61,581 nt of DNA, from the NCBI GenBank assembly GCA_029262005.1, contig JAJDAG010000176.1:1-61581 (forward strand), given 5' to 3'. The notes beneath the pieces were generated by a model, which had not been told where the DNA came from, made no database searches, and worked only from the letters and a program-made list of their open reading frames with translations. Shown in pieces: positions 35,149 to 56,305 of the stretch. Within the stretch, counting starts at the first letter, position 1, and each line of letters begins with the position of its first letter. Both the position numbers and the translations under genes were made by a program. This DNA comes from Candidatus Zhuqueibacterota bacterium. GTDB taxonomy: Bacteria; Zhuqueibacterota; Zhuqueibacteria; Oceanimicrobiales; Oceanimicrobiaceae.

Positions 35149-38100
35149 CTATGCCAACACTTGTTCATTGAGATGTTGCAGCATCTCAAACAGCGTCGCG
35201 ACACTCAGTTCGGAGCGGGCGTGCAACACATTTATGTCGCCAATCAATCTTTTTACTCGCTGTTTCTTCTCAGCAGCCCCCTCAGCCGGCCCTGAAATCC
35301 TTAAATTAATCAAGCCGGTAATCAGTTTTTCAATAGAGGTATCGATTTTTGAGAAAAAGCGAATTTCCCAGTTGGAAGTCGCGTGCATATCTTTGGTGAT
35401 TTGCCGCAACTCTTTGATGCGGTATTTTTGCAACACTGAAAAATAATCGCTGATTTGCCACTGAATTCCCCTGGCCTGATTGTTTACAAAAATATTAAAC
35501 GCATCCTCAAGAGCGTCCATTTGACGAAAGGCGACCAGAATGCCCTCTACTTCTTCTTTGCTGAACATTTTGAGTAAAATTCTGTGTTTGCGCGGTAACC
35601 TGAAGCTTGAATACCTGGACGCTGCAGTAAGTATTTCCGAGAAAGCCCCTGTGCCACCCGCTTGAACAATTTTCAACAGCGCATCATCCTTGAGCAGTTT
35701 TTTTGTGATTTCGTAAACCTTTTCCCCCAGCAACAGAAGGTACTCATAGTGAATATTTGAATTCAGCCACTCTCCCGTTGTTTCAATGCGTGTTCTCAGC
35801 TCATTAAGGTTGAGGAATTCGGACAGCTGCATGTATGCATGGGCAATGGCTTTGGGCGGCTTACCCGTGGTCATGTGTAAGCGTTGAAAAAAGGCTATGC
35901 CTGCGTGATTTACGATCTCATTGAGCATTTCCGTAATGACGATTTCTCGTTTCAAAGGATGGGCAAGAATCTGTTTCTCATATTTTTCCGCCACGCCGGC
36001 AGGAAAATATCGCAAAATCAGGCGGTCATACCACGGTTCGTAAAAACTATCAGAATCGAGAAGAATTTGATAGCCGTACAGCTTTGTGAAACCCGCAAGC
36101 GCACACAACACCGGACGCTGCAATGTTCGTGAACCCTGACTGATAATATCCATGTCCGCTTCGTAAGGGATGTTGTCAAGCTCTCTATTGAGAATGCCCT
36201 TGCGATTCAGGAATTTCATGAGGGTGCGGAAGTAGATAAACTGGAATGGAACACGCAGCATATCCAGTGACAGGCCCAGATTGTTATGATAATTCTGGCG
36301 CAAGACAAGTTCGATTTCATCCTGCTCGTGTTTTCGTATTATTTTATTGCGCTGCACCTGAGTGATGATTTTCTTCCGGCAAAGACCGTCGAGCAAAATT
36401 TTTAAATTCACTTCATGATCCGACATGTTGACGCCGGCGGAATTGTCGATGGCATCCGTGTTGAGTCGGACACCGAGATTGGCCGCCTCAATTCTTGCTG
36501 CCTGGGTAAGACCGAGATTGCCGCCCTCGCCAACAACTTTTGCCCGTAATTGTGAAGCATTGATGCGGACGCTGTCGTTGGCAGGATCGCCGACCTGGTA
36601 ATGTGTTTCCTGGCTGTCCTTTACATAAGTACCAATGCCGCCATTCCAAAACAAATCAACCGGTGCACACAAAATCGCTTTGATCAGTTCTTCTCCGGAA
36701 AGAGCCTTCACCTTGATGCCCAACGCTTCCCGGGCCAATGCAGGAAGCTCAATTTTACGAAGGCTTCTTTTGAAAACACCACCACCTTCTGAAATAAGCG
36801 AGGCATCGTATTCATCCCAATTTCCAAGTTTCTCAAATAGCCGCTGCCGTTCTTCAAAAGAAGCAACCGGGTCCGGATTGGGATCAATAAAAATATAAAG
36901 ATGGTTGAACGCGGCCTTCAACCTGAGACTGCGCGAAAGCAACATACCGTTGCCAAACACATCGCCGCCCATATCACCAATCGCAATTACTGTGAGCGGG
37001 TCTGTTTCAGGATTGACGCCAACTTCGTGGAAATGCCGTTTGACCGCCTCCCAGGCACCCTTGGCTGTGATGCCTTGTTTTTTATGATCATAGCCCTCTG
37101 AGCCACCAGAGGCAAACGCATCGGTCAACCAGAATTTGCGTTTCAGAGAAATTTCATTTGCAAAATCGCTGAATGAAGCCGTGCCCTTATCCGCAGCAAC
37201 AACGAGATATGGATCATCGCCATCCAAACGCGTGATGCCTCTGGCAGGAATGACTTTTCCGCCCGCCGACAGGTTGTCAGTCAAATCAAGGAGACAGGTT
37301 ACAAAACGCTTGTAAGTCGCCTGGCCGGCCTCAAGAAATGCCTGACGACTGTCAAACGCCTGGTGCTTTAAAACAAAACCACCTTTGCTGCCTACCGGCA
37401 CAATAACTGTGTTTTTGACCATTTGGGCCTTCATCAGCCCCAAAACCTCGGTACGAAAATCATCCTGGCGATCTGACCAACGGATGCCCCCGCGCGCCAC
37501 AGCGCCGCCGCGCAAATGAATGCCTTCCATATCACTGGCATAAATGTAAATTTCGTAAAGAGGCGTTGGTTGTGGAATATTCTCAACCAGGCCGCTTTTT
37601 ATTTTAAAACTAATCTCCGGCTTATGCAAAAAATAATTGGTGCGCATAACGGCCTCGATCACATTCAACAATGCTTTGCAGATATTCTCTTCAAGCACTG
37701 AATCAAGTTGGGCGAAACTGTCGTTCACAGCGCGCCGCGCTTTTTTTACGGCTGCAGGTGTACTGTCCAGGTCGAATTTGGTTTCAAAGAGCGTCACAAG
37801 CGCTCTTGTCAATTGAGGCCATTTCACCAAAGTGGCCTGAGTAGAAGAAAAAGCAAATGATGTATTGATCTTAAAATAGTAGCTGCAAAACGCCTTCACC
37901 AGATCTAACTGACGCGCCGTAAGACCGGCGACTCGCACCAATTCATTAATCGGCTTTGAGGTCATCTTTCTATTCAGCACGTTTGCAATGGCAACAGAAA
38001 TACGCTGCCGCTCTGATTTGTCGAGCGTCTTCACGCCAGGCACGCTGAAAACATAGGTGTACATAGTCGTGTCTTCCGGTGTAAACGGAAAAGCATATTC

Positions 38101-40050: not shown

Positions 40051-40297
40051 CCTGGATTATTCATGAAATCCAAAATTCGCAGTCAATCTGTTACCTCGGG
40101 ACTAACATTCCTCTGCTTTTCGCTCTGGACGAGCGAAAACCTGTCTCCCTGCAAAGGGAGAGCCTTAGTCCCCCTTCGAAGGGGGACGATTTGTGAAGCG
40201 TCCAGCGAACAAATCAGGGGGATGTCTAGCACACATATCTTTGAAAACTCGCTCAAGGCACTTGCTCCCTGAAATGACTATTTGTGAATTATTCAGG
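40051..40297 (+). repeat. MITE-like element, copy A
   Basis: 247-bp non-coding repeat whose inverted copy lies at 54624-54833. The ends are imperfect inverted repeats (CCTGGATTATTCA at the left, TGAATTATTCAGG at the right; 11 of 13 match). The body contains nested hairpins: TTTTCGCTC...GAGCGAAAA, CTCCCTGCAAAGGGAG, and the perfect 20-base palindrome at 40168-40187. Compared with copy B it has about 40 extra bases around this palindrome. No transposase. Confidence 0.85.
40168..40187. repeat. 20-base perfect palindrome inside MITE copy A
   Basis: GTCCCCCTTC is followed directly by its exact reverse complement. The block is missing from copy B, so it was gained in A or lost from B. Confidence 0.8.
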
Positions 40298-40326
40298 CTA
40301 AATCACAGTCCAAAGTTCAGAAAAAA

Positions 40327-41730
40327 TTATTTCTTCCGCACAAACCGCACTATCTCATCTTTATAGTAGTAAAGCAATCCGGTACTGGTCAACAAGACGC
40401 CCAACAGCGACGGGACAAATGCAGTTAGCAAAGTTGTAATCAAAAACCAGACCTGAATAAGCAACACGATGATGAGTGTAAATGGATACCCCCATGCGCT
40501 ATAAGAGCGGGGCGCGTCCGGATACTTGCGCCGCAAAATCCAGACAGAGGCAAAGGTCATAATATTAAAAATCGTTGACGTGAAGGAAAAAAAATCGATA
40601 ATGGCTTCATAAGCGCTCTCAGCAAAACCAGCCCCTATGAGCAGTACGGTAGCCCAAAAACCCTGAGCCAATAAAGCATTATTCGGGGTTTTATATTTTG
40701 GATGAATTTTGGCAAGTGCACCGAAAAACAGACCATCTTTTGCCATCGCATACCAGGTCCGCGCCTTGACCAGCACCTGTGTGCTTACGTTGCCAAACGT
40801 GTTCAACATCACGGCAATGGCAATCATCAGGCCACCGGTTGCACCGATAGCTGCCTGCATAGCCTCGGTTGCCACCCACTTGGATTGCTGAATTTCCGGC
40901 ACCGATAGTTGGTACAGATAGGCCGTATTTGCAGCCAGATATAGCAGCATAACGCCGGCGATTCCAGCCAGCATGGCCAAAGGTAAATTCCGCTTTGGGT
41001 TGCGAATTTCTTCGGCAATGTAAGTCGGACCTTCCCAGCCACTGTAGGCAAAAAAACCATAACGCATTGCGGCGCCTATGGCAAGCAATGTCGACCAGTT
41101 GAACTCCTCCGGCCAGAAAGGCGTCGTGAAGTTTGCTGCATTTCCTGCCTTTGAAAAACCAACGGAAATTACCGCGCCAATGGCAACCAGTTTTAAAAAT
41201 CCAAAAATATTTTGAACCACGCCGCTCAGAAACATACCAAAACAGTTGATAGCTGTCATGAACCAAATCACGCCCAAAGCGATGGCGACTTCCCAAAGGT
41301 GTGAGTAATGCTGACCATTGTGAAACAAAGCGTATAGCGAATTGCCATACTCGGCAAAAACCAGCGCAACCGCAGCAATGGACGCAGTCTCCGAAACAAA
41401 AAACATGGCCCAGCCGCGCAGAAACGTCCAGACTGGTGGGTAAGCCGCTTTCAGGTAAGCATACGGCCCGCCGGATTTTGGCATCATCGCCACCAGCTCG
41501 GCATAAAGGAATGCTCCGAGTAGTGTGGCAATACCACCGATTATCCAGACACCGTAATACAAGCTCACGGCGCCGACCAACAGCATGATTGGCGCCGGCG
41601 TTCTGAAAATACCTGAACCGATAATTCTGCTGATAACGATTGAAAAAGCCTCTGTTAACCCAAGCCTGCGATTCAACTCAGTCGTTTCTGTGAAAAGATT
41701 ATCCTGCGGGAAAAGATGTTTTTTTACCAT
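40327..41730 (-). CDS. amino acid permease, APC family
   Basis: 467-residue inner-membrane transporter with about 12 predicted helices. The family start is present: EAFSIVISRIIGSGIFRTPAPI (unwound helix 1 GSGIF motif) and the substrate-side GGIATLLGAFLYAELVAMMPKSGGPYAYL. Near the middle, GWEGPTYIAEEIRNPKRNLPLAM matches the helix 6-8 region. This pattern is typical of the LAT/exchanger-like or general APC transporters; the substrate cannot be read. It stands upstream of the glutamate dehydrogenase on the same strand, so an amino-acid supply role is a fair guess. Confidence 0.92.
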   Translation of the reverse strand: MVKKHLFPQDNLFTETTELNRRLGLTEAFSIVISRIIGSGIFRTPAPIMLLVGAVSLYYGVWIIGGIATLLGAFLYAELVAMMPKSGGPYAYLKAAYPPVWTFLRGWAMFFVSETASIAAVALVFAEYGNSLYALFHNGQHYSHLWEVAIALGVIWFMTAINCFGMFLSGVVQNIFGFLKLVAIGAVISVGFSKAGNAANFTTPFWPEEFNWSTLLAIGAAMRYGFFAYSGWEGPTYIAEEIRNPKRNLPLAMLAGIAGVMLLYLAANTAYLYQLSVPEIQQSKWVATEAMQAAIGATGGLMIAIAVMLNTFGNVSTQVLVKARTWYAMAKDGLFFGALAKIHPKYKTPNNALLAQGFWATVLLIGAGFAESAYEAIIDFFSFTSTIFNIMTFASVWILRRKYPDAPRSYSAWGYPFTLIIVLLIQVWFLITTLLTAFVPSLLGVLLTSTGLLYYYKDEIVRFVRKK

Positions 41731-42044
41731 TCTCTGATTTCGAAAGTTATTTACATAGGTTGTTGAGGGGGTTGATAAAAGTTAAGAGATGCAAACACAA
41801 AAGTCAATGATTGATAAGGCCAAACTGGAATCCACTTTACCATGCATGGCCCACATATAAAATCGAACCAAAAAGTACAAAAGTAAACACAGTGGTACAC
41901 TTAGATGTTATTCGTCCTATTCGAGCCAACCAATTAACTACAATATTAAAAAGAACTTACGTCAACATCAAAAAGAACGGCATTAAAATTGTAAGTCCGG
42001 TGACCATAGCACCAGCAATTTCAATACTAACCTTGAGGAAAACG
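41731..42044. other. intergenic region, no gene seen
   Basis: 314 bases between the divergent permease and His-rich lipoprotein genes. The lipoprotein frame is open back to 41811, but that extension has no signal peptide or ribosome site and is not likely to be translated. Confidence 0.5.
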
Positions 42045-42311
42045 ATGAAAAACAAATCAATGCTTAAGAGAATCCTGGTCAGCGCACTTCTTGTTTCGCT
42101 CTCACTTGCAAGTTTCATCGGATGCGCCCGGCGGTCACGGGTTGTCATTCACTCACCCGGCGCCAAAGTTGTTGTGGTAAAAAAAGGACACCGGCACACA
42201 GCGCGTTGCGGCCATTATCAGCATGGTAGTAAGTGGTATTTTTCTAAAGGGCATGTACACCGTAAACACTGTGGTCATCATTTCAGTGGCGGCGTTTGGA
42301 TCATTCGATAG
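42045..42311 (+). CDS. His/Cys-rich small lipoprotein with tandem metal-site repeat
   Basis: 88 residues from the ATG at 42045, chosen because GAGG lies 8 nt upstream and a signal peptide follows (LVSLSLASFIGC, lipidated Cys27). The mature 61 residues hold a short beta-prone part (SRVVIHSPGAKVVVVKKG), then two related units, GHRHTARCGHYQHGSKW and GHVHRKHCGHHFSGGVW, sharing GHxHxxxCGH....G..W. Each unit offers several His and one Cys, so binding of zinc, copper or nickel is likely. Only two genes follow within 2 kb and neither names a metal. I do not recognise the family. Confidence 0.72.
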   Translation: MKNKSMLKRILVSALLVSLSLASFIGCARRSRVVIHSPGAKVVVVKKGHRHTARCGHYQHGSKWYFSKGHVHRKHCGHHFSGGVWIIR

Positions 42312-42536
42312 ATGCTCTACCGAATAAATATCGCGGGAATGGCTGCTCGGGAGTGTTTTCGGTCCGACATTAAATAGATGAGCAACGCAAATGGATTTTC
42401 CTTGTGATGATGGAGATGGCGCTGCGGCCTTCTCCATCGCCGGTCTTACTCCTTGCAAAAAAAAGTGGCGCCATCTTGCAAACGCGCCACATGCACGACG
42501 CTCTGAATTTATTTTATCGCGCGTAGCGAATTCATC

Positions 42537-44555
42537 CTACCTCAGCAAAAGCATTTTGCGGGAAAGAGTCGCCTCACCGGTGGCCAAGCGATAGAAGTAC
42601 AGACCGCTGGGCATCGGTTGACCGGAATGACTTCTGCCATCCCAGCGCACAATTTTTGAACCATTTGGCTGGTACGCCGCCACCAATACCCGTACTTCCT
42701 GGCCCAGTGAATTATAAATTTTCAGCGAGACTTCTGAAGCACGTGGTAAGTAATACTGGAGTTTGGTTCCCGGGTTGAAAGGATTTGGATAATTCCGGCC
42801 AAGCGAAAATCCTTTGACGCCGTTAGGAACGTCTTCCACCGGAACCAGGGGACTCACTTCTTTTAGAATCCAATTATTCGGATCAAACTCGAGTTGGCTC
42901 GGCTCGCCTCCTATCACAAACTCAAACGATTGTGGCTGCTGATCATTAAAAGCCGTAAGAAGCGTGTCCCCCCGGCTGGTCTTCACTCTGAGCTGGATTG
43001 GCATTACAAAAAAGGCCGGACTGGTATTTCCTTCCTGCGAAATATCAATTTTTACTTTAAAACTATCCGAACCCAGGGCGCTTACAGACCAGTCATAAAC
43101 ATATCGCGGAAAATTCTCCCCATAAATCCACTCATGAAAAAAGTAGCTTAGCTCTTTGCCTGAAACGGTTTCTGCAATGCGCTGGAAATCTTCAGTCGTA
43201 GCAACACCATAGGCCATTTCAGCATCCGCCGCGTAGGTTTTAAGAATCTGAAAAAACAGCGCATCGCCAACAATGCCACGCAACATGTGCAGAACCACCG
43301 AACCTTTGGAATATGATCGCGCCGAGTCAAAAATTTCCCACACCACACCGGGTAAATCAGGATCTATGTTCTCAACATAAATTGAACCCTGGGCATATTT
43401 CGCATGATCCATATTAGAAGCCATTTCAGCATGGTAGGACGCTATTCCATAGGCAGCTTCTTTGTAAAGTGCCTCTGCGTAAGTTGCAAACCCTTCATTG
43501 AGCCAAATATGGTGCCAATCTTTACAAGTTATTTTATCACCAAACCACTGGTGCGCCAGCTCATGCGCCACAATGCTTTCTCCGTATGCACCCATGGAAG
43601 AAATTGTCTGGTGTTCCATGCCGCCGCCCCAACCAAATTCCGCATGCCCATATTTTTGCTCCAGGAAAGGATATGGGCCAAAGTCCTCACTGAATACACG
43701 CAGCATGGCAACGGTTTTATCCAATTGATTCTTTCGAACGGCAGTGAAATTCTCCGGATAGTTATAATGCATCATTTCCATTGATTTCCCAGCCTCATAC
43801 TCGAATTCGTTTGTGTAAATCTCATAATTAGCGAGTGCAACAGAAATGAGGTACTGGGCAATGGGCTGATCGTTTTTCCATTTGAAAGTATGCGTGCCAT
43901 CGCCATTATCGATGATGCCTTCGAGCACCCCATTTGATGCAACTTTCAAAGAAGCATCGCAGGTAATCCAGACATCCGATGAATCGGCTTTGTCAGATGG
44001 GACGTCTTTGCAGGGAAACCAGTCGCTAGCGCCATACGGCTCACTCAAGCTCCAAATGGCGGGTTCACCTGCATGTTCAGAAAATACAAAACTCGAAAAG
44101 CCGCTTGAGCCAGGCGCACCATGATAGTAAATGTCTACAGAAAACAACTCGCCCTGATTAAATGGCGCAGGCAGTGTTGTCACCAAACGGTTTTGCGACT
44201 GCGCATCCCCCCGTTTGAAAGCCAGCTTTTGACCGCTGGACTTCACAGAATCCACTGTGAGACTGCTTGTCAGTTCCAGAAAGAAAGACCGCAACGCACT
44301 AGCCTGACTTTTTGCAGCGACTGTGGCAACGCCACTTAAGTTTTTGGCACTGTGGTCAATGGTAATCTGCAGTTTGTAGTAAGTCACATCAATGGTGCTG
44401 TCGCCACGAACTTCGCTGCTGCTCTTTCGCAAGGCATACTTTTGTTGTTGCTTTATTTTGCCTTGTGCGCAAACATGTTCTTTTTCCTGCGCCGACAATA
44501 AGGTGGGTAGAGTCAGGAGCAGCAGTGCGGTTATAAACGTTTTGCTTACTTTCAT
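42537..44555 (-). CDS. secreted M1-family aminopeptidase with T9SS sorting domain
   Basis: 672-residue exported gluzincin. The start at 44555 (MKVSKTFITALLLL) gives a clean signal peptide ending LLSAQ, with GGAG about 10 nt upstream. An N-terminal beta domain leads to the GGGMEH substrate motif, and the zinc site HELAHQWFGD with the third ligand in LNEGFATYAEA 18 residues on. A tyrosine of the YSKGSVVLHML region is in the usual catalytic place. The C-terminus (from about residue 587) is the NYPNPFNPGTKLQYYLP...MPSGLYFYRLAT...MLLLR sorting domain, matching that of the BNR protein at 25.8 kb. It likely trims peptides outside the cell. Confidence 0.93.
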   Translation of the reverse strand: MKVSKTFITALLLLTLPTLLSAQEKEHVCAQGKIKQQQKYALRKSSSEVRGDSTIDVTYYKLQITIDHSAKNLSGVATVAAKSQASALRSFFLELTSSLTVDSVKSSGQKLAFKRGDAQSQNRLVTTLPAPFNQGELFSVDIYYHGAPGSSGFSSFVFSEHAGEPAIWSLSEPYGASDWFPCKDVPSDKADSSDVWITCDASLKVASNGVLEGIIDNGDGTHTFKWKNDQPIAQYLISVALANYEIYTNEFEYEAGKSMEMMHYNYPENFTAVRKNQLDKTVAMLRVFSEDFGPYPFLEQKYGHAEFGWGGGMEHQTISSMGAYGESIVAHELAHQWFGDKITCKDWHHIWLNEGFATYAEALYKEAAYGIASYHAEMASNMDHAKYAQGSIYVENIDPDLPGVVWEIFDSARSYSKGSVVLHMLRGIVGDALFFQILKTYAADAEMAYGVATTEDFQRIAETVSGKELSYFFHEWIYGENFPRYVYDWSVSALGSDSFKVKIDISQEGNTSPAFFVMPIQLRVKTSRGDTLLTAFNDQQPQSFEFVIGGEPSQLEFDPNNWILKEVSPLVPVEDVPNGVKGFSLGRNYPNPFNPGTKLQYYLPRASEVSLKIYNSLGQEVRVLVAAYQPNGSKIVRWDGRSHSGQPMPSGLYFYRLATGEATLSRKMLLLR

Positions 44556-44686
44556 TGGAAGACTCCAATTGTTCGTCAAAAGAACAGCGTAACTTCAAAG
44601 AACCTTGTATTTCCTAAAGTTTTTGTTCTTTTATCGGGAACCCCTGATTTCCTGCAAAAAATACTTTTCAAATTCTAAATTACTCC

Positions 44687-47233
44687 TTACCCTTCCGCCC
44701 GCAAAATCTCCAGCGGCGGTCTGCTCAAAATACCCCGGCTGCTGGCCATGCCAATAAGAATGGTGAGCCCAACAACCGTTGCTGTAACGAGTAAAAATGG
44801 TAGAAATGTTGGTAAAAAGGCAGACTCAAAAATAAAAACAGCCAGGGCCCAACTTGTACCATAAGCAAGCACCAGTCCTGTAATGGAGGCAAAACTGCCG
44901 AGAAAAAGATACTCAATAACCATAATGCGTGTGACCTGATTCCTGCTGGCGCCGAGGGTTCGCAACAGAACAGTCTCCTGCACCCGTTGCAAACGACTGG
45001 TTACCACAGCAGCAGACAACACCAACAATCCTGCCAAAATGCTAAAAAAAGCCATGAAGCGGATGGCAAAGGCAACCTTGTTCAGCAAAGCGTCTAATGT
45101 GTGCAGCACAAGTTTCAAATCGATAATGGAAACGTTTGGGAATGCTTGCACAAGCGCTTTCTGAATTCCGGCCGATGCCTTGGAAGAAGACGTTTTTGCA
45201 GCGAGAATGTGAATTTGCGGCGCATCTTCCAGCGCGCCTGTCGGAAATACCACCATAAAATTGGCCTGAATGCGCTGCCAGTCCACCTTGCGAAAACTGC
45301 TGATCCGGGTAATGAGCGGCACCCCTTGCACATCCCAGATAATGGTATCGCCAAGCGCAAGTTGCAATCGCTCAGCCGCGCCCTCCTCAAACGAAATGGG
45401 GAAAATACCGGCATCTTGCCGAGCATGACCAACCCACTCACCCGCGATAATTTCCTCTGAATTAATGAGGCTGTCCCGGTAGGTGGTGCGGTATTCCCAG
45501 CGCAGCAAGCCACGGCTGGCCCGGCGAGTGGAGTCACTTAAGATATTTCCGGTACGCTCTGCATTTATTGCCGCAATACGCATGGTAACCATAGGTGCGG
45601 ACTGAATAATGGGTACATCATTGCCCCGAAACAATGCGGAAACAGCCTCGATTTGGTCCGATTGAATGTCATAGATAAGCATGTTGGGGCGATTGCCACC
45701 CGCCACATAACTGACTTTGCTGAGCAGAGTGTCATGCGTCAAATAAAGGGTGGTGATCAGAAAGGTGCCAAGTCCCACCGCAACCATCAAAACCAGTGTT
45801 TGATTGTTAGGCCGATAGAGATTCGCAAGCCCCTGGCGCCATACATAACTCCACGATTTCGGAAAAAATTTTCGCACCGAAACGGTGATCAACCTTGCAA
45901 CACCGGCAAGGATGGCAAACGCCAACATCACAACTGCGGCGAAAAGTAAACCGAAAATCCAATTGGCGGACTGATAAACAAAAAAACCAGCCACAGTCGC
46001 AACGATGGCCAAGCCGGTCAGCCAACGACTTTTGTCCTTGGGTGGTGCAGTGATTTCAAAGGCAGCCCTCAGGGCAAAAAACGGAGACACATTTCGTACG
46101 GACAGCAATGGCAGCAACGCAAAAAGCATGGCCAAACCCAGCCCAACGAGCATGCCATCCACGATGGGGCCCCACAAAAATTGAGCTGCTATTTGTACAG
46201 GCAAAAAATCAAGCAAGATGCCGGGTAAAGCTGCCTGAACCACAATACCCAAAGCTGCGCCGAAACAACTGCCCACCAACGCCATTGCTGCAACTTGAAT
46301 CAAATAGATCTGGAATGTCTGTTTTGAACTTGCCCCCACACAGCGTAAAACAGCAACATCCCCTAATTTTTGATTAATGTAAACATGCACGGCGCTGGCC
46401 ACGCCAATGCTGCCGAGAATGAGTGCGACAAAGCCGACCAGGTTGAGAAAGCGGTAGAGATTTTCCATGATTTTGCCAACGCGCTGTTTGCGGCTGGCGA
46501 TTGTCTCGACGCGAATGTGGTGTTCGTCGAGTAGTGGACCCAGCGTAACCGCCAGCGTGTCGGCGTTGTGCGCGTCATTGAGTCTAAAATAAACACGATA
46601 GTTGATCAAACTGCCCGGTTGCAAAAGAGCCGTTTCTGCGAGCAGACGGGCTGGAATAAAGATAGTCGGATTGAAAGTGCTTGCCACAGGCGGTTCGGCC
46701 GGCGTTCTGGTGATGCTGCCAATAACCTGCAAAGAGAGTTTACCAATCCGGATGGAATCCTCTGTAGTAACGCCCAGTTGCAGCGCCAGACTTTCATCTA
46801 CCAGTGCAAAACGGCCGGCCTGATAGCGCCCGGCCGCCTCCGGGGGCTCGGTACCAATCGCACCGTAAAAAGGAAAAGCAGCATCCACTGCACGCACTTG
46901 AACCAATCTTGAATTTCCGGTTTTCGGGAAAAGGGCCATGGAACCAAAAGCAAACTCGCGAACCTGCTCGCCGCCAATTGCCGCAATCACCGAGTCCACT
47001 TCTGCGATAAATGGCCGCAAGCTTGAAAACATCAAATCAGCGCCCAAAAGCGTCTTGGCCTGCTCATTGATGGCGCGTTCAATATTGGCGCCAAAAGAGC
47101 CGATGGAGACAATGGCAGCAACACCAAACACAATGGAAGTCACAAATAACAGAAGGCGTCTGCGGTGGGACCGGCTGTCTCGCCAGGCCATGCGAAAAAC
47201 CCAGGTATCAGGAAACGGTGTGTTCTTTTTCAT
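44687..47233 (-). CDS. YbbP-like ABC transporter permease (two FtsX domains)
   Basis: 848-residue permease of the MacB/FtsX superfamily, with the YbbP layout. One helix at the N-terminus (LLLFVTSIVFGVAAIVSIG), a large periplasmic domain, three helices near residues 250-390 with one FtsX unit, a repeat of the same plan (helix near 415-440, second periplasmic domain), and a last set of three helices ending ILRAEG. Such permeases work with a YbbA ATPase and often a TesA-type lipase; substrates are unclear (lipids or hydrophobic compounds are proposed). No ATPase adjoins it, but a YbbA-like gene lies 13 kb away at 60263. Confidence 0.9.
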   Translation of the reverse strand: MKKNTPFPDTWVFRMAWRDSRSHRRRLLLFVTSIVFGVAAIVSIGSFGANIERAINEQAKTLLGADLMFSSLRPFIAEVDSVIAAIGGEQVREFAFGSMALFPKTGNSRLVQVRAVDAAFPFYGAIGTEPPEAAGRYQAGRFALVDESLALQLGVTTEDSIRIGKLSLQVIGSITRTPAEPPVASTFNPTIFIPARLLAETALLQPGSLINYRVYFRLNDAHNADTLAVTLGPLLDEHHIRVETIASRKQRVGKIMENLYRFLNLVGFVALILGSIGVASAVHVYINQKLGDVAVLRCVGASSKQTFQIYLIQVAAMALVGSCFGAALGIVVQAALPGILLDFLPVQIAAQFLWGPIVDGMLVGLGLAMLFALLPLLSVRNVSPFFALRAAFEITAPPKDKSRWLTGLAIVATVAGFFVYQSANWIFGLLFAAVVMLAFAILAGVARLITVSVRKFFPKSWSYVWRQGLANLYRPNNQTLVLMVAVGLGTFLITTLYLTHDTLLSKVSYVAGGNRPNMLIYDIQSDQIEAVSALFRGNDVPIIQSAPMVTMRIAAINAERTGNILSDSTRRASRGLLRWEYRTTYRDSLINSEEIIAGEWVGHARQDAGIFPISFEEGAAERLQLALGDTIIWDVQGVPLITRISSFRKVDWQRIQANFMVVFPTGALEDAPQIHILAAKTSSSKASAGIQKALVQAFPNVSIIDLKLVLHTLDALLNKVAFAIRFMAFFSILAGLLVLSAAVVTSRLQRVQETVLLRTLGASRNQVTRIMVIEYLFLGSFASITGLVLAYGTSWALAVFIFESAFLPTFLPFLLVTATVVGLTILIGMASSRGILSRPPLEILRAEG

Positions 47234-47538
47234 AGTGAGGCTTAAACGGGAAGTGGCGAGTGATGTTTCACGATGTTTACTGGCGAATACTATTTCTGTT
47301 TGGTTTTAAGAACTGATAACGAATTTTTTGCAAGAAATTTATCACAACATTACAGGCTTTCTGACAAAAAGTAACTCAAGGCGAAGCCTTATCTGGGATA
47401 CAAATAAATCTTTTTGACGAGTCATCACAATCTCACATTCAGAATAAGAATATTCGCTTAATAGTTGAAGATGACAAGAAGGCCATTTCTCGACAGGACA
47501 TGCAAAAAGGCCGCCCGCTACCTATCCTGGGTCAACTA
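47234..47538. other. intergenic region, no gene seen
   Basis: 305 AT-rich bases between rsgA and the permease, both on the minus strand. No inverted repeat or RNA was recognised. Confidence 0.5.
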
Positions 47539-48624
47539 TCACTTTCCCTTATTGCGTCTTTTGAACGCTTGCATTTGCTTGTACATTTTACTCTGACTGC
47601 GCTCTTTTTTTCGCAGAACCCACGGCGGTTGCTTTTTGCGCTGTTCTCCAAGCAGAGCCAATTCTTCCTGCATTTTCATGTAATTTTCATAGCGCTTTTG
47701 TGCCAACTGTTCACTCTCCACAGCAGCAAGAACAGCGCATTTTTGTTCCTTAATGTGCTTGCAATCAGAAAAATGGCATTGCCCGGCGAGTTCTTCAATG
47801 TCGGCAAAAGTGTCTGTGATCCCTTCATCGGCCTGCCACAACTGTAGTTCACGCATACCCGGCGTATCGATCAAACACGCCCCTTTTTTTAAAAGAATCA
47901 GTTCGCGCCGGGTGGTCGTGTGTCTGCCTTTGGAATCACCGCTGCGCACTTCCCGGGTTTTTTGCACTGCATCACCAACAATACAATTGATCAACGTAGA
48001 TTTACCCACACCGGATGAGCCAATAAACGCAAAAGTCTGTCCTTTTTTTATTGCCCGTTTCAACTTATCCAGACCAGCCCTGGTTTTGGCACTGACGAGC
48101 AGCACCTTCACATCAGGCGCTACTTCCCTCACTTGCCCAACCGGCTCGCTGACGCTATCGCACAAATCCGCCTTGTTAAGTATAACCACGGGCATTGCCC
48201 CGCTTTCATTGACCATAACCAGAGTGCGTTCCAATCGGCGGACGTTAAAATTGCCATCCAGACTTTGCACCACAAACACCACGTCAATGTTCGTTGCGAT
48301 AACCTGTTCGTCGGTTTTCTTTCCCGCAGCTTTACGGGAAAATTTTGTCTTTCTCGGCAGGACGGTGTGGATGATGGCGCGCTCCTCGCCGGCAAAGGTT
48401 TGCAGGGCCACCCAATCCCCGACTTTGGGCAAATCAGCCGCTGACCGACGTGTAAAAAGCAAGCGCCCCGCTACCTCGGCAGTTATTTCTCCGGCCTCGG
48501 TGAAGACGGAAAAGCAATCGCGATTTTCAATGGTCACACGACCATTTTCAAAACCCTGGTCGCGGTATTCGACAAATGCTTTCTCAAAAAAATCAGACCA
48601 GCCAAAAGCCGTAAGTTTACTCAT
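47539..48624 (-). CDS. rsgA: ribosome small-subunit GTPase RsgA
   Basis: 361-residue late-stage 30S maturation factor. An OB-fold start (about 35-110) precedes a circularly permuted G domain, in order NKAD (G4), GSSGVGKST (G1, about residue 203), G2 region with the GRHTTTRRE switch, and DTPGM (G3). The zinc finger CHFSDCKHIKEQKC follows, and a Lys/Arg-rich tail ends the protein. This is full length. It is monocistronic; a dispersed hairpin repeat lies 50 bases upstream of its start. Confidence 0.96.
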   Translation of the reverse strand: MSKLTAFGWSDFFEKAFVEYRDQGFENGRVTIENRDCFSVFTEAGEITAEVAGRLLFTRRSAADLPKVGDWVALQTFAGEERAIIHTVLPRKTKFSRKAAGKKTDEQVIATNIDVVFVVQSLDGNFNVRRLERTLVMVNESGAMPVVILNKADLCDSVSEPVGQVREVAPDVKVLLVSAKTRAGLDKLKRAIKKGQTFAFIGSSGVGKSTLINCIVGDAVQKTREVRSGDSKGRHTTTRRELILLKKGACLIDTPGMRELQLWQADEGITDTFADIEELAGQCHFSDCKHIKEQKCAVLAAVESEQLAQKRYENYMKMQEELALLGEQRKKQPPWVLRKKERSQSKMYKQMQAFKRRNKGK

Positions 48625-48674
48625 TTATATCTTCTTAAGACTAACCCGGTGAAGCCGGAACCAATGAGTTCTTA

Positions 48675-48756
48675 GACGGGATTAACAGGATTTTCAGAAT
48701 TCGTCTTTTAAGCGGACTAATTGACAAAATCCTGTTAATCTTGCAAATCCTGTCCC
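48675..48756. repeat. hairpin repeat of the ATCCTGTTAATC type
   Basis: A perfect 15-base inverted repeat (48680-48694 with 48726-48740) is extended by partly matching flanks (GACGGG ... CCTGTCCC). It is non-coding, with a 31-base centre. Sequences like 'aaatcctgttaatc...caaatcctgtc' are scattered in intergenic DNA of many bacteria; from memory, not searched. Confidence 0.6.
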
Positions 48757-49006
48757 AAAAAATAATCTACCAAAAAGTGGCAGGAAAATACTTGTCAGTT
48801 ATTAAAGAAAAAAGACCCGCAACTTTCAACAAAAAACAAGATGCTTTGATGCAAACACAGACACAAGCCGCGCCTGTTTCAACTGTAATAACAGAAATAT
48901 TTATCGAAGTAACAACAACTAATGTAATTGCGTCACTTTGCCCTGAAAGATAAATTCGCGCATTGAGAACAAATTTGCTTAGGCTTTTCGAAGAAATTCA
49001 GCAAAT
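48757..49006. other. intergenic remainder, no gene seen
   Basis: With the repeat before it, 382 bases separate rsgA from the SLC13-type gene. I saw no convincing gene. The rsgA promoter should lie close to its start, near 48625-48680. Confidence 0.4.
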
Positions 49007-50782
49007 TTAAAGCGGCCAAAACACGGGGATAAGAATGCTCGCAACTATCCACAAAAGAATGTTTAGTGGCAAGCCAATTTTCAGGAAATCCCGAAAAAAA
49101 TACCCGCCCGGACCCATGACCAGTGTGTTGGTTTGGTAACCGATTGGCGTTGAAAAGCTCGCACTTGCACCAAATGTAATCGCGATGAGAAGCGCCTTGG
49201 GATCAACCCCTAACCCGCTTGCAACAGCAAGTGCAACCGGCGTCATCAACACTGCGGTGGCATTGTTGGACATAAATTCCGTCAACACGTTCGTCACGAG
49301 ATAGAAACAACTGATCAGCACAACCGGTCCGTGGGAACCTGCAACATCAACAACCCAATTGGCAATTAAAGATGCCAGGCCGGTTTTTTCCATTGCCTGG
49401 CCCATTGGAATCATGGCTGCCAGAAGAAACAAGACCGAGCTATCAAGGGCACGATTGGCCTGCGCCAGCTTCAGGCAGCCGCTAAGCAACATGATGCCAA
49501 CACCAGCAAAGGCAAGAAAAACAATGGGCGCTACGCCTAAAGCCGCCAGCACGACCACAGAAGTCAGAATAGCCACTGCCACTGGCGCTTTGCCGGGTAG
49601 GGTCAACGTTTTTTCCACCCCCTCAATAAGCAGAATATCCCCGCTTTCCTGCAAAGCATGCAGTGAAGCAAGGTCGCCTTGAATAAGCAAAACATCACCG
49701 GAGCGCAAAACAAAGTCACGGAGGTTATAAATATGATGCCCGCTGCCGAGCCGTCTGGCCGCCAGAACGTACACGCCATACTGCCTGCTCAGTCCAACAT
49801 CCCGAATTTTTTGTCCAAGAAACCTCGAGTTTGGCGTGACAACTGCTTCCATTGTCATCAAATCAAATCTGCTGATTTTAACCCTTTGATGATCAGAAAC
49901 AGCCGTTGCATAATCAACGCCTTTTGTGGTAAGCAAATTATTAATGGCCCGGGCGCTGGCCTCCACAAGAAACGTGTCCCCGGCCGCAACAGCAACCTTT
50001 AAGTCCGGATTGAGAATTGCTTCTTCCGTACGGATAAGTTCCATTACTCGAATTTCATCTGCCCTGATAAAAAGCTCTTCAATGCTCTTGCCAATATGAT
50101 TACTATTCGATGGAACTGTAACTTCAGTCACAAACTTACTCAACTGAGCATGTGAAAGCATTTGGCTCAAAGAGGTTCGTTCCGGCAGCAGCTTGTCGGA
50201 AAAAAGAAACAGGTAAATCGAGCCAAGAACAAGAAATATGATACCCAGGCTGGCAAACTCAAACATACCAAAGCCGGGGCCACCCGAGGTTCGATAAAGT
50301 GAATCAACAAGGATGTTTGTGCTGGTTCCAATGAGGGTACACGTGCCCCCGACAATGGCAAAATAGCTCACCGGGATTAACAATTTTGAGGGTACAATTT
50401 TACATCTGCGGCTGAGGGCCAGAACCACCGGAATCAAAATGGCCACAACAGCCGTGTTGTTAATAAACGCACTAAAAAGTCCGCTGGTACTTCCAAGACC
50501 AATCAGAAGCTGCGACCGGCTGCCGCCGGCCCACTTTTCAAGCGTTGCGCTGATATAATCAACAACCCCGGAACGCACCAAGCCAGCGCTGAGAACGAGC
50601 ATGGCTGCAACTGTGAGGGTGGCGGTACTCGAAAAGCCCGACAAAGCCTCCTTGGGCGCCAAAATTCCTGATAGCGCCAGTGTCGCCACAATTAAAATCG
50701 ATACAACTTCAATGCTGACTGCCCGGCTTACAAATAGAGCAAAAGCTGCCAGCAGAATTGTAATGAGTATGGTTATTTCCAT
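49007..50782 (-). CDS. SLC13/DASS-type anion permease with two RCK_C domains
   Basis: 591-residue inner-membrane transporter. The start at 50782 (MEITILI) is supported by AGGTGGT three bases upstream. N-terminal helices (about 1-190) and C-terminal helices (about 395-590) hold the two inverted transport repeats, including AFINNTAVVAILIPVVLALSR-like and FMSNNATAVLMTPVALAVA hairpin motifs with the SNT/NNTA signature. Between them are two TrkA-C-type regulatory domains (VTEVTVPSNSNHIGKSIEEL, MTMEAVVTPNSRFLGQKIRD). Relatives move sulfate, dicarboxylates or similar anions with sodium. The substrate cannot be told here. Confidence 0.92.
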   Translation of the reverse strand: MEITILITILLAAFALFVSRAVSIEVVSILIVATLALSGILAPKEALSGFSSTATLTVAAMLVLSAGLVRSGVVDYISATLEKWAGGSRSQLLIGLGSTSGLFSAFINNTAVVAILIPVVLALSRRCKIVPSKLLIPVSYFAIVGGTCTLIGTSTNILVDSLYRTSGGPGFGMFEFASLGIIFLVLGSIYLFLFSDKLLPERTSLSQMLSHAQLSKFVTEVTVPSNSNHIGKSIEELFIRADEIRVMELIRTEEAILNPDLKVAVAAGDTFLVEASARAINNLLTTKGVDYATAVSDHQRVKISRFDLMTMEAVVTPNSRFLGQKIRDVGLSRQYGVYVLAARRLGSGHHIYNLRDFVLRSGDVLLIQGDLASLHALQESGDILLIEGVEKTLTLPGKAPVAVAILTSVVVLAALGVAPIVFLAFAGVGIMLLSGCLKLAQANRALDSSVLFLLAAMIPMGQAMEKTGLASLIANWVVDVAGSHGPVVLISCFYLVTNVLTEFMSNNATAVLMTPVALAVASGLGVDPKALLIAITFGASASFSTPIGYQTNTLVMGPGGYFFRDFLKIGLPLNILLWIVASILIPVFWPL

Positions 50783-51226
50783 TACCACCTGACTTGATGC
50801 AAAATGGCTGACCCATGTCCGTCGATTGGAAGACACTTACATTTTTCAATCAAACTCAAAATAAGACAGAATGACACCCAAAGTCAACGGAAAGTTCACA
50901 CCGCGCAGGATCAGATTGTTATTAATGCTGCGGATAATAATTATATTATTTAAGGATGAAAATGCTATCTTTTAAGCATGACGAAACAGATTTAAGAGAA
51001 CAGCCGGATGACGCACGCAACTACCTCAGAAAACAGGGGATTCGGTTGTTAAAAGAAGATAAGATTCAAATAGTTGTTGCCCAAATAATGACATCAAACA
51101 GGAAGTTCATTCTAAAACTCTTTTCAGAAATCAGAACAGTTTGATGAACCGTGGCATATCATCATGTAAGGCCCAAATCAGTGCAAATTCATAGTTTGAA
51201 GTTTAATTTAACAGGGATTTAGCTTC
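50783..51226. other. divergent intergenic region with one possible small gene
   Basis: 444 bases between the SLC13-type gene and the PLP enzyme. Apart from the small frame at 50962-51144 I see no feature. The stretch 50930-50950 is very AT-rich. Confidence 0.4.
50962..51144 (+). CDS. possible small cytoplasmic protein (60 aa)
   Basis: A 60-codon frame starting at 50962 with AAGGA 5 nt upstream (an earlier in-frame ATG at 50956 is too close to that site). The product is charged, with a Lys/Ile-rich helical second half and no membrane segment. No family recognised. The ribosome site speaks for it; size and isolation against. Confidence 0.35.
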   Translation: MLSFKHDETDLREQPDDARNYLRKQGIRLLKEDKIQIVVAQIMTSNRKFILKLFSEIRTV

Positions 51227-52690
51227 ATGATCGATCTGACACAAAACACAGAACAACTCACCAGCGCCGTGGATTTGGCCCGTAAGCAAAACATCATCAT
51301 CCCTACTTTTGCGGAAATGATTCATCCCGAAAAACATTCCGCCGAAATCAAAACAAAATTGAAAGAAGTTGGATTGTGGGAAGTGGATCCGCTCAACCTG
51401 TTTCGCATTACCTGGAAAAATGAGCCAATAGAAAAAGGTGGAAAATTCGGCGATGTCAACTACCTCGAAATTCCCTCTGAACTGACTGGTGTCAAAGCGC
51501 GTATTTTCGGTTTGGTTGGCAAATGGTTTCCCACTGGTGCGCACAAGGTTGGGGCCAGTTTTTCTTGTTTAGCGCCGCGACTTGTCACCGGGCAATTTAA
51601 TCCTGCCACTCACAAAGCTGTCTGGCCTTCGACCGGAAACTACTGCCGTGGTGGCGCCTACAACTCCGCGCTGCTCGGCTGCGAATCCATTGCGATTTTG
51701 CCGGAAGAAATGAGTCAGGAACGCTTTGAATGGTTGAAAACCGTAGCCGGAGAAATCATTGCTACACCGGGCTGCGAATCTAACGTCAAAGAAATTTACG
51801 ACAAATGCCGGGAACTGCGTGATACCCGCGACGACATTATGATTTTCAATCAGTTTGAGGAGTTTGGAAATTACCTCTGGCATTTTCATGTCACCGGCCG
51901 TGCCATGCAGGCAGTGCTTGAAAAAGAGCTTGGTGAGCATGGCCGTTTTGCCGGCATCACCAGCTCAACGGGTTCAGCCGGTACCATCGCCTGTGGTGAT
52001 TTTTTGAAGCAGCAATTTCCAAACAGTAAGATCGCGGCGGTCGAGGCACTGCAATGTCCGACGCTGTTGCAGAACGGCTATGGCGGCCATCGCATCGAAG
52101 GCATCGGCGACAAGCATGTGCCCTGGATTCACAACGTGCGCAACACCGATTTGGTGATTGCAGTTGATGACGATTTCTGCATGAACCTCATTCGCTTATT
52201 CAACGAAATAACGGGTCAGGAATATCTCGCAGGCGCAGGTGTTGCGGAAGAGACCATTCAAAGCCTCCCTTTGCTGGGAATTTCCGGAGTCAGTAACCTC
52301 ATTTCAGCAATCAAATTTGCAAAGTATTTTGAGTTGACTGAAAACGATGCTGTTTTTACGATTTTCACTGATTCTATGGAATTGTACCAGAGTCGGCTGG
52401 CTGAGCTAAATAAGGAGTATGGGAAATACACGCGGGAAAACGCAGTTCGTGATTTTCATCGCTTTCTGCAAGGCATTTCCACCGATAACATGCTCGAATT
52501 AACTTACCCTGAACGCAAACGTGTGCACAATCTGAAATATTTCACCTGGATTGAACAACAGGGAAAAACCACCGAAGAGCTCAATGCGCAGTGGTACGAC
52601 TGGCCGGAATATTGGACCGCAATTCAGGCTCAAGCTGCAGAAATTGATGCGTTAATCAACGCATTTAATGAGCGGGTCGGCCTTTCCTGA
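51227..52690 (+). CDS. PLP-dependent fold-type II enzyme, reaction unknown
   Basis: 487-residue enzyme of the tryptophan synthase beta/cysteine synthase superfamily. The PLP lysine is in FPTGAHKVGASFS, the phosphate-binding loop is probably TSSTGSAGT (about residue 246), and STGNYCRGGAYNSALLG matches the substrate Asn loop. A C-terminal extension (about 420-487) goes beyond core family length. It resembles the 'PLP-dependent protein, subunit beta' group found in many bacteria, whose reaction is not established to my knowledge. GGGA lies about 9 bases before the ATG. It stands alone. Confidence 0.88.
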   Translation: MIDLTQNTEQLTSAVDLARKQNIIIPTFAEMIHPEKHSAEIKTKLKEVGLWEVDPLNLFRITWKNEPIEKGGKFGDVNYLEIPSELTGVKARIFGLVGKWFPTGAHKVGASFSCLAPRLVTGQFNPATHKAVWPSTGNYCRGGAYNSALLGCESIAILPEEMSQERFEWLKTVAGEIIATPGCESNVKEIYDKCRELRDTRDDIMIFNQFEEFGNYLWHFHVTGRAMQAVLEKELGEHGRFAGITSSTGSAGTIACGDFLKQQFPNSKIAAVEALQCPTLLQNGYGGHRIEGIGDKHVPWIHNVRNTDLVIAVDDDFCMNLIRLFNEITGQEYLAGAGVAEETIQSLPLLGISGVSNLISAIKFAKYFELTENDAVFTIFTDSMELYQSRLAELNKEYGKYTRENAVRDFHRFLQGISTDNMLELTYPERKRVHNLKYFTWIEQQGKTTEELNAQWYDWPEYWTAIQAQAAEIDALINAFNERVGLS

Positions 52691-53043
52691 AGCATGCGAG
52701 TCGGTAGTAGAGTAAAACCGGCTGTTCGCGAAGAGCTTGTCGCGTCCGGCTGCCTGACGAAAGTTTGCCTTTCAATGCCTGCATCTTTTGGCCTGAATCA
52801 ATACTAATCCCAAAAATCAATTTTGCGTGGTTCTGTTGTAAAAACACCACAATCGCAGCTTTTCTTCACTCTGCCGATTCTTTTTTACATCTGTATTTGA
52901 CTAGCTTAACCCTTCCTATAAATTGCTATTTATGGTGAAGTGAAGATTTTTGGCCCGATAGTTGAAGACTGCACTGCCGTGTTCATGAAAACAACATGCA
53001 CGACCGGTCATTTACTTAATTTTAAACTGAAAGGAATCTAATC
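52691..53043. other. intergenic region, no gene seen
   Basis: 353 bases between the PLP enzyme and the lipoprotein gene. No gene, RNA or clear repeat was recognised. Confidence 0.5.
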
Positions 53044-54474
53044 ATGAAACGACTCAACTCTGCAATTCGACACACAGTGCTACCGATATGCTTGTCAATG
53101 TTATACCTTTTCGGATGTGCCCAAAATCCCGCTGATTCAGATGGTACGATTGACCCTGCTGCGAAGCAAGCGGAAGCTCTCGGCAAAACGGGTGTCAGCA
53201 TTTACCAAAACATCAACTCTTTTAAGCAAATGGATAATTTCAAATCAGGTAAAATCGAAATCGAAGATTTTGATATAAATGATTTTGGTAACGGCACGGA
53301 AGCCATGAAGTTTGGTAAAATAGTGAAGAAACGCGCACTTGCTTCCATCCAAAAAAGAGCAGAAATGCAGCGAATGCTCCTGAGCGCTGCCAATGATTCG
53401 GTGATTTTTGATTTTACTGAACGCGACACTTCCGAGGGCGTTACGCGTCGCATTGCCTTGTTCTACGATACAGCTTCCGGCAATGCCCGCCTGGTTCTCG
53501 TTGGCTCCGATTACAGCGATGCGCATATTGTCGAGTATGACTCCACCGAGCTAATCGTTAATTTAAACCATACAATTTTTGATGACTCAGACGATGTTTT
53601 ACTTTCCATTGAATCGCAAAAGCGCTATAAAGCCGGCCAACTGGTACAAGAGGAAAAAGGTAAATTCACACCTGATGCACACGCACCAGGCACAGAACCG
53701 GAAGGTGGCGTTCTGACGGGTGAAGTGACTTATTCAAGTTCCAGTTTCATCAGCAAAACCACAAACCATTTTGAGTTTCATCCTGAGACGGGTGGCAGTT
53801 TCGAGAAAACATCCGTGTTCTCTGATGGAAAATCGAGCAGAGAGGCTGCCACATTTAATGCCGATGGTACAGGCACGTTTGAAGAAGACAGACGAGATGG
53901 CACGCAAATCAGAGGCACTTTTGAAGGCGCTGAGGATGATGGCTCCGGCAGTTACAGCATTACCACAACCTATCCTGCCGGGCATGATCCTGTTTCCGTG
54001 GCTGAGTCTGCAGATTTTGATTATGACGCAGCAACTGAAACCGTTTCCGGCTCTTTCGAGAGAACAATCAACCGGCTTGACGGCACCGTTGAAACAGAAT
54101 CTGCTGCAATCACTCAGAGTCGTGATGGTGAAATTCTGGTCACAACCATCAGCTCACAAAATATTGACGGCAGCCACGGAACCATTACCATAACCGAGAC
54201 GCCTGATTTGGAGCAAGTAACCGGTGAATGGACCGATGCCGACGGCACATTTGTTGTTTTCAAAGCTCAGACTTTCGGCGATGAAAGCGTGCATTTTGAG
54301 GCTGACCAATATGCTTCCAAGGAAGATTACGACAACAAAGAAGCGCCTGCAGCAACAGCCGTGTTTGACTTCTACCCGGATGGTTCCGGCAGTGGCGTTG
54401 TGACGGAAGGTGAAGATGTGTACGATGTTGTAATTAGCCCGGATGGTTCTGTTACAATAACGAAGCGCAACTAA
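53044..54474 (+). CDS. large repeat-rich lipoprotein, unknown function
   Basis: 476-residue lipoprotein (signal ending LFGC, Cys25; AAGGA before the ATG). After a helical, Lys-rich part (about 40-120) the rest is a long chain of short beta-strand units joined by DG turns (FNADGTGTFEED, RRDGTQIRGTFEG, LDGTVETESAAI, SRDGEILVTT, IDGSHGTITIT, FYPDGSGSGVV). The pattern resembles an extended beta-sheet or repeat solenoid. It is strongly acidic. I do not recognise the family. A strong terminator follows, so it is monocistronic. Confidence 0.75.
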   Translation: MKRLNSAIRHTVLPICLSMLYLFGCAQNPADSDGTIDPAAKQAEALGKTGVSIYQNINSFKQMDNFKSGKIEIEDFDINDFGNGTEAMKFGKIVKKRALASIQKRAEMQRMLLSAANDSVIFDFTERDTSEGVTRRIALFYDTASGNARLVLVGSDYSDAHIVEYDSTELIVNLNHTIFDDSDDVLLSIESQKRYKAGQLVQEEKGKFTPDAHAPGTEPEGGVLTGEVTYSSSSFISKTTNHFEFHPETGGSFEKTSVFSDGKSSREAATFNADGTGTFEEDRRDGTQIRGTFEGAEDDGSGSYSITTTYPAGHDPVSVAESADFDYDAATETVSGSFERTINRLDGTVETESAAITQSRDGEILVTTISSQNIDGSHGTITITETPDLEQVTGEWTDADGTFVVFKAQTFGDESVHFEADQYASKEDYDNKEAPAATAVFDFYPDGSGSGVVTEGEDVYDVVISPDGSVTITKRN

Positions 54475-54507
54475 GACCATGATTCAGGTTTAAGTTTTAT
54501 TCTTGAG

Positions 54508-54540
54508 TGGGGCATGCAGAAATGTGTGCCCCATTTTTTA
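54508..54540 (+). terminator. Rho-independent terminator of the lipoprotein gene
   Basis: TGGGGCA pairs perfectly with TGCCCCA around a 12-nt loop and is followed at once by TTTTTTA, 33 bases past the stop codon. Confidence 0.9.
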
Positions 54541-54623
54541 TTTGTTCATCGGTGAATTTCTGCCGGAAAAATATGACTGTGTTCAATAAAATATAGGTTT
54601 AATTTGTGTGCATCAGTTACTAA

Positions 54624-54833
54624 CCTGAATAATTCAAAAATAGTCAGTTCGGGCAACAAGTGCCTTGAACGAGTTTTCAAAGACATGTGTGATAGACATC
54701 ACCCTGATTTGTTCGCTGGACGGTCTCCCTGTGAAGGGAGACCGGTTTTCGCTCGTTCAGAGCGAAAAGCAGAGGGATTTTCGTCCCGAGGTAACAGATT
54801 GACTACGAATTTTCGATTTCATGAATAATCCAA
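54624..54833 (-). repeat. MITE-like element, copy B (inverted)
   Basis: 210-bp copy of the element at 40051-40297, in reverse orientation. Read on the minus strand it runs TTGGATTATTCATGAAATCG..., shares the stretches GTCAATCTGTTACCTCGGGA and GTCCAGCGAACAAATCAGGG with copy A, and ends TTGAATTATTCAGG. It lacks the 20-base palindrome of copy A. It lies between the lipoprotein terminator and the BamA-like gene. The open frame that spans it is not taken as a gene. Confidence 0.85.
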
Positions 54834-54937
54834 GCTGAAATAACAAAAAGGAATTGCAGTTTGTTTGATCTGAAACCATGGATTTATCCGACTTAATGGC
54901 TTGCACTTATTTTACAATTGTTTTAAATTAGATCTCC

Positions 54938-56305
54938 ATGAAAAAAATTAGCCCCCAAATTGCTTTGTTCAGAAAACGAATCTTGCGAATTGCTCTGCTT
55001 GCGGTAATTGCGCTTCTTCCTGCCTTTGCATTGCATGCTCAATCCGGCAAACAGCCTAAGCGCATCACGCTTGAAAGTTTTGAATTTGTCGGCAACAGCA
55101 AGACCCGGACCAGGGTCATCCTTCGCCGACTTGGGTTGCAGCTCGGCGATGAGATCTCACCTCAAATTATTGAGCTTGGGCGCCAGCGACTGGCGCATAC
55201 CAATTTTTTCAAGGAGGTCAGCCTTTACGCCAGGCCCGGGTCTGAGAAGGGCAAGATAGTCCTGATCATTGAAGTGAAGGAGCGTAAATGGCCTTACTTT
55301 CAATTTGAAGGGGGGCACAGTGAACTTGAAGGTTGGTATTTTGTGCCTGCCAGTCTGCGTTTTGATAACCTGTTCGGGCGTGGTCATCGTTTCGGCCTGA
55401 AATGGCGAATTGGTGATCATCACAACAGACTTTCTTTGGGCTATGGTACGGAGTTTTTCGACCGCCTGCGTTTTGAGGCTGAATTGTTTGGCGGGGGCAC
55501 TGACTACATCCATTACCTGGATGGCCAAAGAGCGACTCACAAAGTCAATTCCGGTGGACTCGCTTTGCGGCTAGCCGGAAGCAGGGGACTGCTCAAACAT
55601 GTTTTTCTGGGCTTGCACTCAGAGAATTATGAACCGGACGATTTTGCTCTTCGTCAAGATGACGTCAAAGTGCAAGGCGCTGACCTCCCCGGCAGCATCA
55701 TGGCGGATCTTGGCAGAAAAGAGCTTCGTTCGATTACTCTGGGTTTGCGTTTGGATACCCGTGACAACTCGGTTTATCCGCTTAGCGGCTTGTGGGGCGC
55801 TGCTACCGCTGAAATAACCGAAGATCTGGATAATAAAAATGCTGAATTTGCCAAGCTTACAGCAGATGCCCGAGCCTACTTCCCACTGGATGACACAAAA
55901 GTCCTGGCTATTCATGGAAAGGCAGCCTTTGTAAGTGAAGCGTCTCCATTTTACCAAAGGTTCTATCTGGGTGGCGCCAATTCCCTGCGTGGTTATGCTG
56001 ATAGACGATTGACACCGGAAGGTTGGGGAACAAAGTTGCTCCTGACAAATGTTGAATTCAGGTTTCCCATTACCCGCGAGCGCTTTCCATATCACAAATC
56101 CAGCGGCGTTGTATTTTTTGATGCCGGCGGAATTTGGCAGACCGGGCAAGTGCCACGCTCGGAGGATTTCTACTCAGCAGTTGGCGTTGGCGTTAGAGTC
56201 AAGTTTCCGGTTATCGGTATCGTCCGGTTTGACTTTGCCTTTCCCATCAATAAGATTGACGAAAACAATTACAAGTTTCACCTATCGCTGGGACACACTT
56301 TTTGA
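54938..56305 (+). CDS. BamA/TamA-like outer-membrane barrel with one POTRA domain
   Basis: 455-residue Omp85-superfamily protein. A signal peptide (to LHAQ, about residue 35) is followed by one POTRA domain (about 40-112: SFEFVGNSKTRTRVILRRLG, LAHTNFFKEVSLY, IVLIIEVKE). A 16-strand-type barrel makes up the rest, with the GLRLDTRDNSVYPLSG and FYLGGANSLRGYADR motifs (the second is the family's strand-16/loop 6 RGY region) and a C-terminal aromatic (LGHTF). A single POTRA is fewer than BamA's five, so this is likely a specialised Omp85 protein such as a TamA or patatin-type translocator, not the main BamA. It overlaps the DUF4390 gene. Confidence 0.9.
   Translation: MKKISPQIALFRKRILRIALLAVIALLPAFALHAQSGKQPKRITLESFEFVGNSKTRTRVILRRLGLQLGDEISPQIIELGRQRLAHTNFFKEVSLYARPGSEKGKIVLIIEVKERKWPYFQFEGGHSELEGWYFVPASLRFDNLFGRGHRFGLKWRIGDHHNRLSLGYGTEFFDRLRFEAELFGGGTDYIHYLDGQRATHKVNSGGLALRLAGSRGLLKHVFLGLHSENYEPDDFALRQDDVKVQGADLPGSIMADLGRKELRSITLGLRLDTRDNSVYPLSGLWGAATAEITEDLDNKNAEFAKLTADARAYFPLDDTKVLAIHGKAAFVSEASPFYQRFYLGGANSLRGYADRRLTPEGWGTKLLLTNVEFRFPITRERFPYHKSSGVVFFDAGGIWQTGQVPRSEDFYSAVGVGVRVKFPVIGIVRFDFAFPINKIDENNYKFHLSLGHTF

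Follow-up and report, generated by a model that had tools for sequence, protein, structure and literature searches.

Type-II MITEs of bacteria are non-coding elements of 50–500 bp that have little beyond their ends in common with an insertion sequence (IS) and are presumed to be moved in trans (PMC10969869). The two elements described here, copies A and B in a 61,581-nucleotide stretch of DNA (the whole stretch analysed, hereafter the window), resemble them in size, in the lack of coding capacity and in sharing only their ends with an IS; they differ in that their interior is a shared hairpin cassette, and IS1380 has 0 occurrences in that review. Three further systems were compared: TIMEs (Tn3-derived mosaic miniature elements; PMC4133298) are likewise miniature and mosaic, but have Tn3-type ends and 5–6 bp scars, and mobility has been tested in them. 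REP/BIME sequences (PMC3733652) resemble the cassette, which consists of two roughly inverted hairpin units with the left unit also occurring singly, whereas the cassette units are about 57 bases long and lie inside MITEs, the likeness observed being one of architecture rather than of a REP tag or a RAYT link. piggyBac elements (PMC10813416, where IS1380 is taken as the outgroup) share the 4-bp TTAA-like scars, but are eukaryotic and have a different transposase.

IS1380-family insertion sequences have the end sequence (CCTGAATAATTCAYAAA) and the 4-bp scars of A and B, and the parent transposases described below match NF033539; they are 1.6–1.8 kb long and carry a gene, as against 211–247 bp without a gene, and the ends alone are common to both. 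Titles and abstract openings of the literature on IS1380, IS701, nested MITEs and KSB1 contained no description of the element family. The preferred reading, assigned a probability of about 0.9, is that A and B are non-autonomous type-II MITEs with IS1380 ends that were moved in trans, and that the hairpin cassette entered their pair of arms.

Structure and surroundings of copies A and B

The features of the window are collated in Table 1. Copy A was aligned with the reverse complement of copy B: 190 of 210 aligned bases were identical (90.5%), with one 37-base gap. The pair had been proposed as a possible driver of inversions of the 14 kb between them; the longest exact run common to both is 22 bases. 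Both copies end in inverted repeats of about 13 bp (CCTGRATWATTCA), and their folding as DNA was stronger than that of shuffled sequences (z=−3.9 and −4.4). No ORF of at least 90 aa overlapping either copy was found in the ORF scan, and a transposase gene is absent from both interiors, as is expected of MITEs. The preliminary description, which had reported two inverted, non-coding copies with long near-identical stretches, imperfect terminal inverted repeats, hairpins and a perfect 20-base palindrome in A, was thereby borne out; its limits for copy A were retained, and the end of copy B, placed at 54833, was moved by one base (Table 1).

Table 1. Positions of the elements and their parts in the window.
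Feature	Position	Strand	Basis
Copy A, 247-bp IS1380-ended MITE	40051..40297	+	repeat search, alignment, end census
Copy A, left terminal inverted repeat CCTGGATTATTCA	40051..40063	+	end pattern, census
Copy A, right terminal inverted repeat CCTGAATAATTCA	40285..40297	-	end pattern, census
Copy A, left target-site duplication CTAA	40047..40050	+	sequence, census
Copy A, right target-site duplication CTAA	40298..40301	+	sequence, census
Copy A, nested hairpin cassette (ACATYCC...GGGATGT)	40105..40225	+	comparison among copies
Perfect 20-base palindrome within copy A cassette	40168..40187	+	sequence
Copy B, 211-bp IS1380-ended MITE, deletion inside cassette	54624..54834	-	alignment, end census
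Copy B flank CTAA	54620..54623	+	census
Copy B flank CTGA, 3/4 match to CTAA	54835..54838	+	census
Cassette of copy B, shortened	54696..54780	-	sequence
Third element, diverged, 142-bp family, same kind of ends, flanks TGAA/TAAA	28941..29081	+	census, similarity

About 40 extra bases had been ascribed to copy A. They are not peculiar to A, since they recur, whole or in part, in C190 and C136 of the own genome and in genomes G003 and G002, and were therefore probably lost by copy B rather than gained by copy A, as judged from this sequence comparison.

Both copies are intergenic. Copy A lies between genes for an NAD-glutamate dehydrogenase (35149–39723, minus strand) and an amino-acid permease (40327–41730, minus strand), and copy B is flanked by an ORF that matches no family (53044–54474) and an Omp85-type gene (54938–56305). 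Elsewhere in the window, four clustered tRNA genes are found together with a small SRP RNA (24116–25155).

Copy number, insertion scars and IS1380 parents

The draft genome to which the window belongs, as contig C86, comprises 5.77 Mb in 205 contigs. A search with copy A gave 48 places in this genome at E≤10, of which 19, A and B among them, reached E≤1e-11; the matches are mostly partial, and at least one copy in the draft (C55) runs off a contig end. The end pattern TARCCTGRATWATTCA gave 97 matches with at most one mismatch, as against 2 for the reversed pattern, and 90 of the 97 fall within stretches entering an end-pair census. This census covered selected stretches of the own genome and the whole window, and collected non-overlapping inverted pairs 60–320 bp apart with at most two mismatches per end and three in total. 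It yielded 57 two-ended elements with several interior families; a few of these are probably chance pairs (for example C86:35053–35314, which reaches into coding sequence), and all 57 were kept. The expectation of many copies per genome was thus confirmed, and multiple copies and short length, as in MITEs (about 50–500 bp), were both found.

When the 57 elements were linked by similarity, 42 fell into one group, most of them 142 bp long; A and B grouped with C190:82053, C100:9057 and C40:47163, five elements of about 180 bp formed a third group, and five were singletons. C100 is copy A minus its middle. The two copies originally counted in 61 kb are real, and the same kind of ends is found on a third element of the window (Table 1), which belongs to the 142-bp group, its best match there being 78.7% identical to it over 136 bases. 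In a set of 60 genomes, the pattern YTARCCTGRATWATTCA was found with zero mismatches in 38 (the own genome included), its reversed control giving one match overall. Copy A itself matched 15 of the 60 at E≤1e-3, in some cases just via short stretches around the palindrome.

Target-site duplications, which the preliminary description had proposed to look for, were scored on the flanks of all 57 elements, with the right flanks permuted 5000 times as the null. Identical 4-bp direct flanks, mostly YTAR, were found in 24 (permuted mean 6.4, sd 2.2; 0 of 5000 permutations as high). The flanks matched at three or more of the four bases in 41 elements and at two or fewer in 16, and both fitted YTAR in 26. 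Flanks identical in inverted orientation, the outcome expected if the inverted ends were longer, were seen in six, five of them self-complementary TTAA. The excess was present both in elements of 140–143 bp (16 of 32 perfect, 3.6 expected, 0 of 5000 permutations) and in the others (8 of 25 perfect, 3.5 expected, reached by 13 of 5000). The scars of copy A (CTAA/CTAA) and C190 (TTAA/TTAA) are perfect; that of copy B has one mismatch.

Full-length parents with the same ends, likewise proposed at the outset, were found in other genomes as elements of 1.6–1.8 kb that have the same ends and scars and encode an IS1380-family transposase. L101:54–1700 in G007, which belongs to the same GTDB family, is 1647 bp long and contains a 447-aa ORF between these ends. 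A profile search with PF13701 in 17 genomes gave matches in eight at E≤0.001, above the cut-off in six. A scan of named genomes gave seven transposase loci, with both ends found at L171, L172 (KSB1 record QNDG01000062.1) and L173 and the pair of ends not found at L174–L177. Among the six two-ended transposase loci (L101, L152, L153, L171, L172 and L173), the 4-bp scar is perfect in three (L101 TTAG/TTAG, L172 CTAA/CTAA, L153 ATAA/ATAA), matches at three of four bases in L152 (TTAA/TTAG) and L173 (CAAA/CTAA), and at two in L171 (TAAA/TTTA). The two proteins tested with NF033539 (IS1380), those of L101 and L172, score 401 bits against a cut-off of 180; the match to PF13701 exceeds 520 bits. Over 17 bases, the inward-read right end of A is identical to the left end of L173. 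The sequence in common with the parents is confined to about 13–17 bases at the ends, and the arms of A and B are not IS sequence.

By sequence, the ends and 4-bp flanks of A and B are those of IS1380 insertion sequences from the same GTDB family and class. Because the same ends and scars bound elements that encode IS1380 transposases, A and B are assigned to the type-II MITEs, and such transposases are most likely their mover in trans. The IS1380 DDE transposase would bind the ends in trans, and the element would be excised and then inserted at YTAR targets by cut-and-paste. The search with the L101 protein at E≤1e-3 gave matches in 16 of the 60 genomes; the own genome is among the 60 but not among the 16, and PF13701 gave just one broken match there (9.5e-4); the absence is not certain, since the 205-contig assembly is a draft. 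As no IS1380 transposase was found in the own genome, the family there probably consists of stranded relics; a matching transposase alongside does not define a MITE, but would be expected where the family is active.

IS701 elements also leave YTAR scars, so that MITEs of this or another transposase family with YTAR-like scars were considered, the own genome containing one broken PF13546 gene. The ends of this gene, the sole PF13546 gene found there, differ from CCTGRATWATTCA, whereas IS1380 elements carry exactly the ends and scars of A and B; such an origin is extremely improbable, and the gene was rejected as parent. C42, where left and right ends lie 1.9 kb apart, was also rejected: the gene between them is not a transposase by length or sequence, and the right end is part of a separate 142-bp element. 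In G031, many contigs (loci L081–L090) stop about 80 bases into an element that has CCTGAATTATTCA ends and in which an ORF apparently begins, a picture that suggests an IS of high copy number missing from the assembly; the interior of the same-ended element inside which G031 and G040 contigs end after about 80 bases was not recovered.

The hairpin cassette

The cassette is a separate hairpin unit that is also present without A's arms: it recurs in the own genome at C163, C90 and C56:69333, where the flanks are unlike A's arms (scores within the range of shuffled flanks). A pattern for its left half was found in 8 of the 60 genomes (control 0), and 17 of 20 inspected stretches contained the cassette or its left half, the other three lacking both. 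Several stretches in G003, G005 and G006 stop after the left half (half-units). The cassette of G024 (L224) is bounded by ends that are IS1380-like by eye.

In G012, from another family of the class, six cassette copies are situated inside a different MITE, an element of 214–215 bp with CATRSGCGTCAAGTTAAG ends, which presumably recall the IS231 group of IS4. Five of the six are flanked by direct repeats of 8–12 bases with at most one mismatch, and the sixth by 7 bases with one mismatch; the repeat scores were 7–11 for the five and 4 for the sixth, the best of 30 mismatched pairings reaching 6. A further short repeat of the CTTCGGCAAGCTCAGGG type lies inside some cassette hairpin loops (L036, L040, L132, L236 and L237) and constitutes a third nesting level.

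The preliminary description had offered a structured RNA as an alternative, hairpins being its sole positive support. According to this reading, A and B would be dispersed structured RNA or regulatory DNA kept for a host function, with the hairpins under selection. Besides the strong hairpins of both copies, their intergenic position agrees with it, as does the pairing of the two cassette hairpins in 17 sequences, in which 94.9% of cells are paired and both sides are changed in 12. These double changes are confined to two pairs and to the six rows from G012, and thus may be one event; two such pairs were matched or exceeded in 399 of 500 shuffles. Neither A nor B has an Rfam match at the gathering threshold, deletions and truncations accumulate freely in the copies, and the scars and transposon ends would be left unexplained. 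A retained structured RNA or DNA is therefore very unlikely.

The arm-less cassettes, the half-units and the cassette within a different MITE in G012 also fit a reading in which the cassette itself is what primarily moves, with the IS1380 arms as just one of its vehicles. Against this, the cassette's own ends showed no common scar or consistent target duplication in the copies compared, and no enzyme was tied to it among the 60 genomes: Y1 transposases occur in 51 and are too common to discriminate, the cassette occurs in 8, and G024 has a cassette and no Y1 match. A primary role of the cassette is accordingly judged doubtful. In the window, an ORF (61047–61499, minus strand) matches a Y1 (IS200/REP-type) transposase (6.6e-23), and at L099 (G012:C20:85500–87200) a Y1 transposase gene (86265–86576) is enclosed by two CCTGGATAATTCAC ends in direct repeat, 644 bases apart and with the same outer flank.

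According to the preferred reading of A and B as IS1380-ended MITEs, the cassette would have entered an ancestral arm pair and then been carried onward by the transposase, with later decay of copies by deletion, as suggested for B and C100.

Significance

A and B are old, non-coding mini-transposons of an ordinary kind, and the interest lies in the shared cassette. It may be, though this is put forward only tentatively, that mobility is two-tiered: a REP-like cassette, mobile or recruitable alone, would repeatedly enter mini-transposons of unrelated kinds (one with IS1380 ends and 4-bp scars, the other with CATRSGCGTCAAGTTAAG ends and scars of about 10 bp), whose transposases would carry it from family to family within one class. 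The results tie class-wide non-coding repeats to one transposase family, with exact ends and scars that can be used for annotation, and, if the two-tier reading is true, palindromic repeats lacking their own enzyme would have a route by which to pass from one genome to another.
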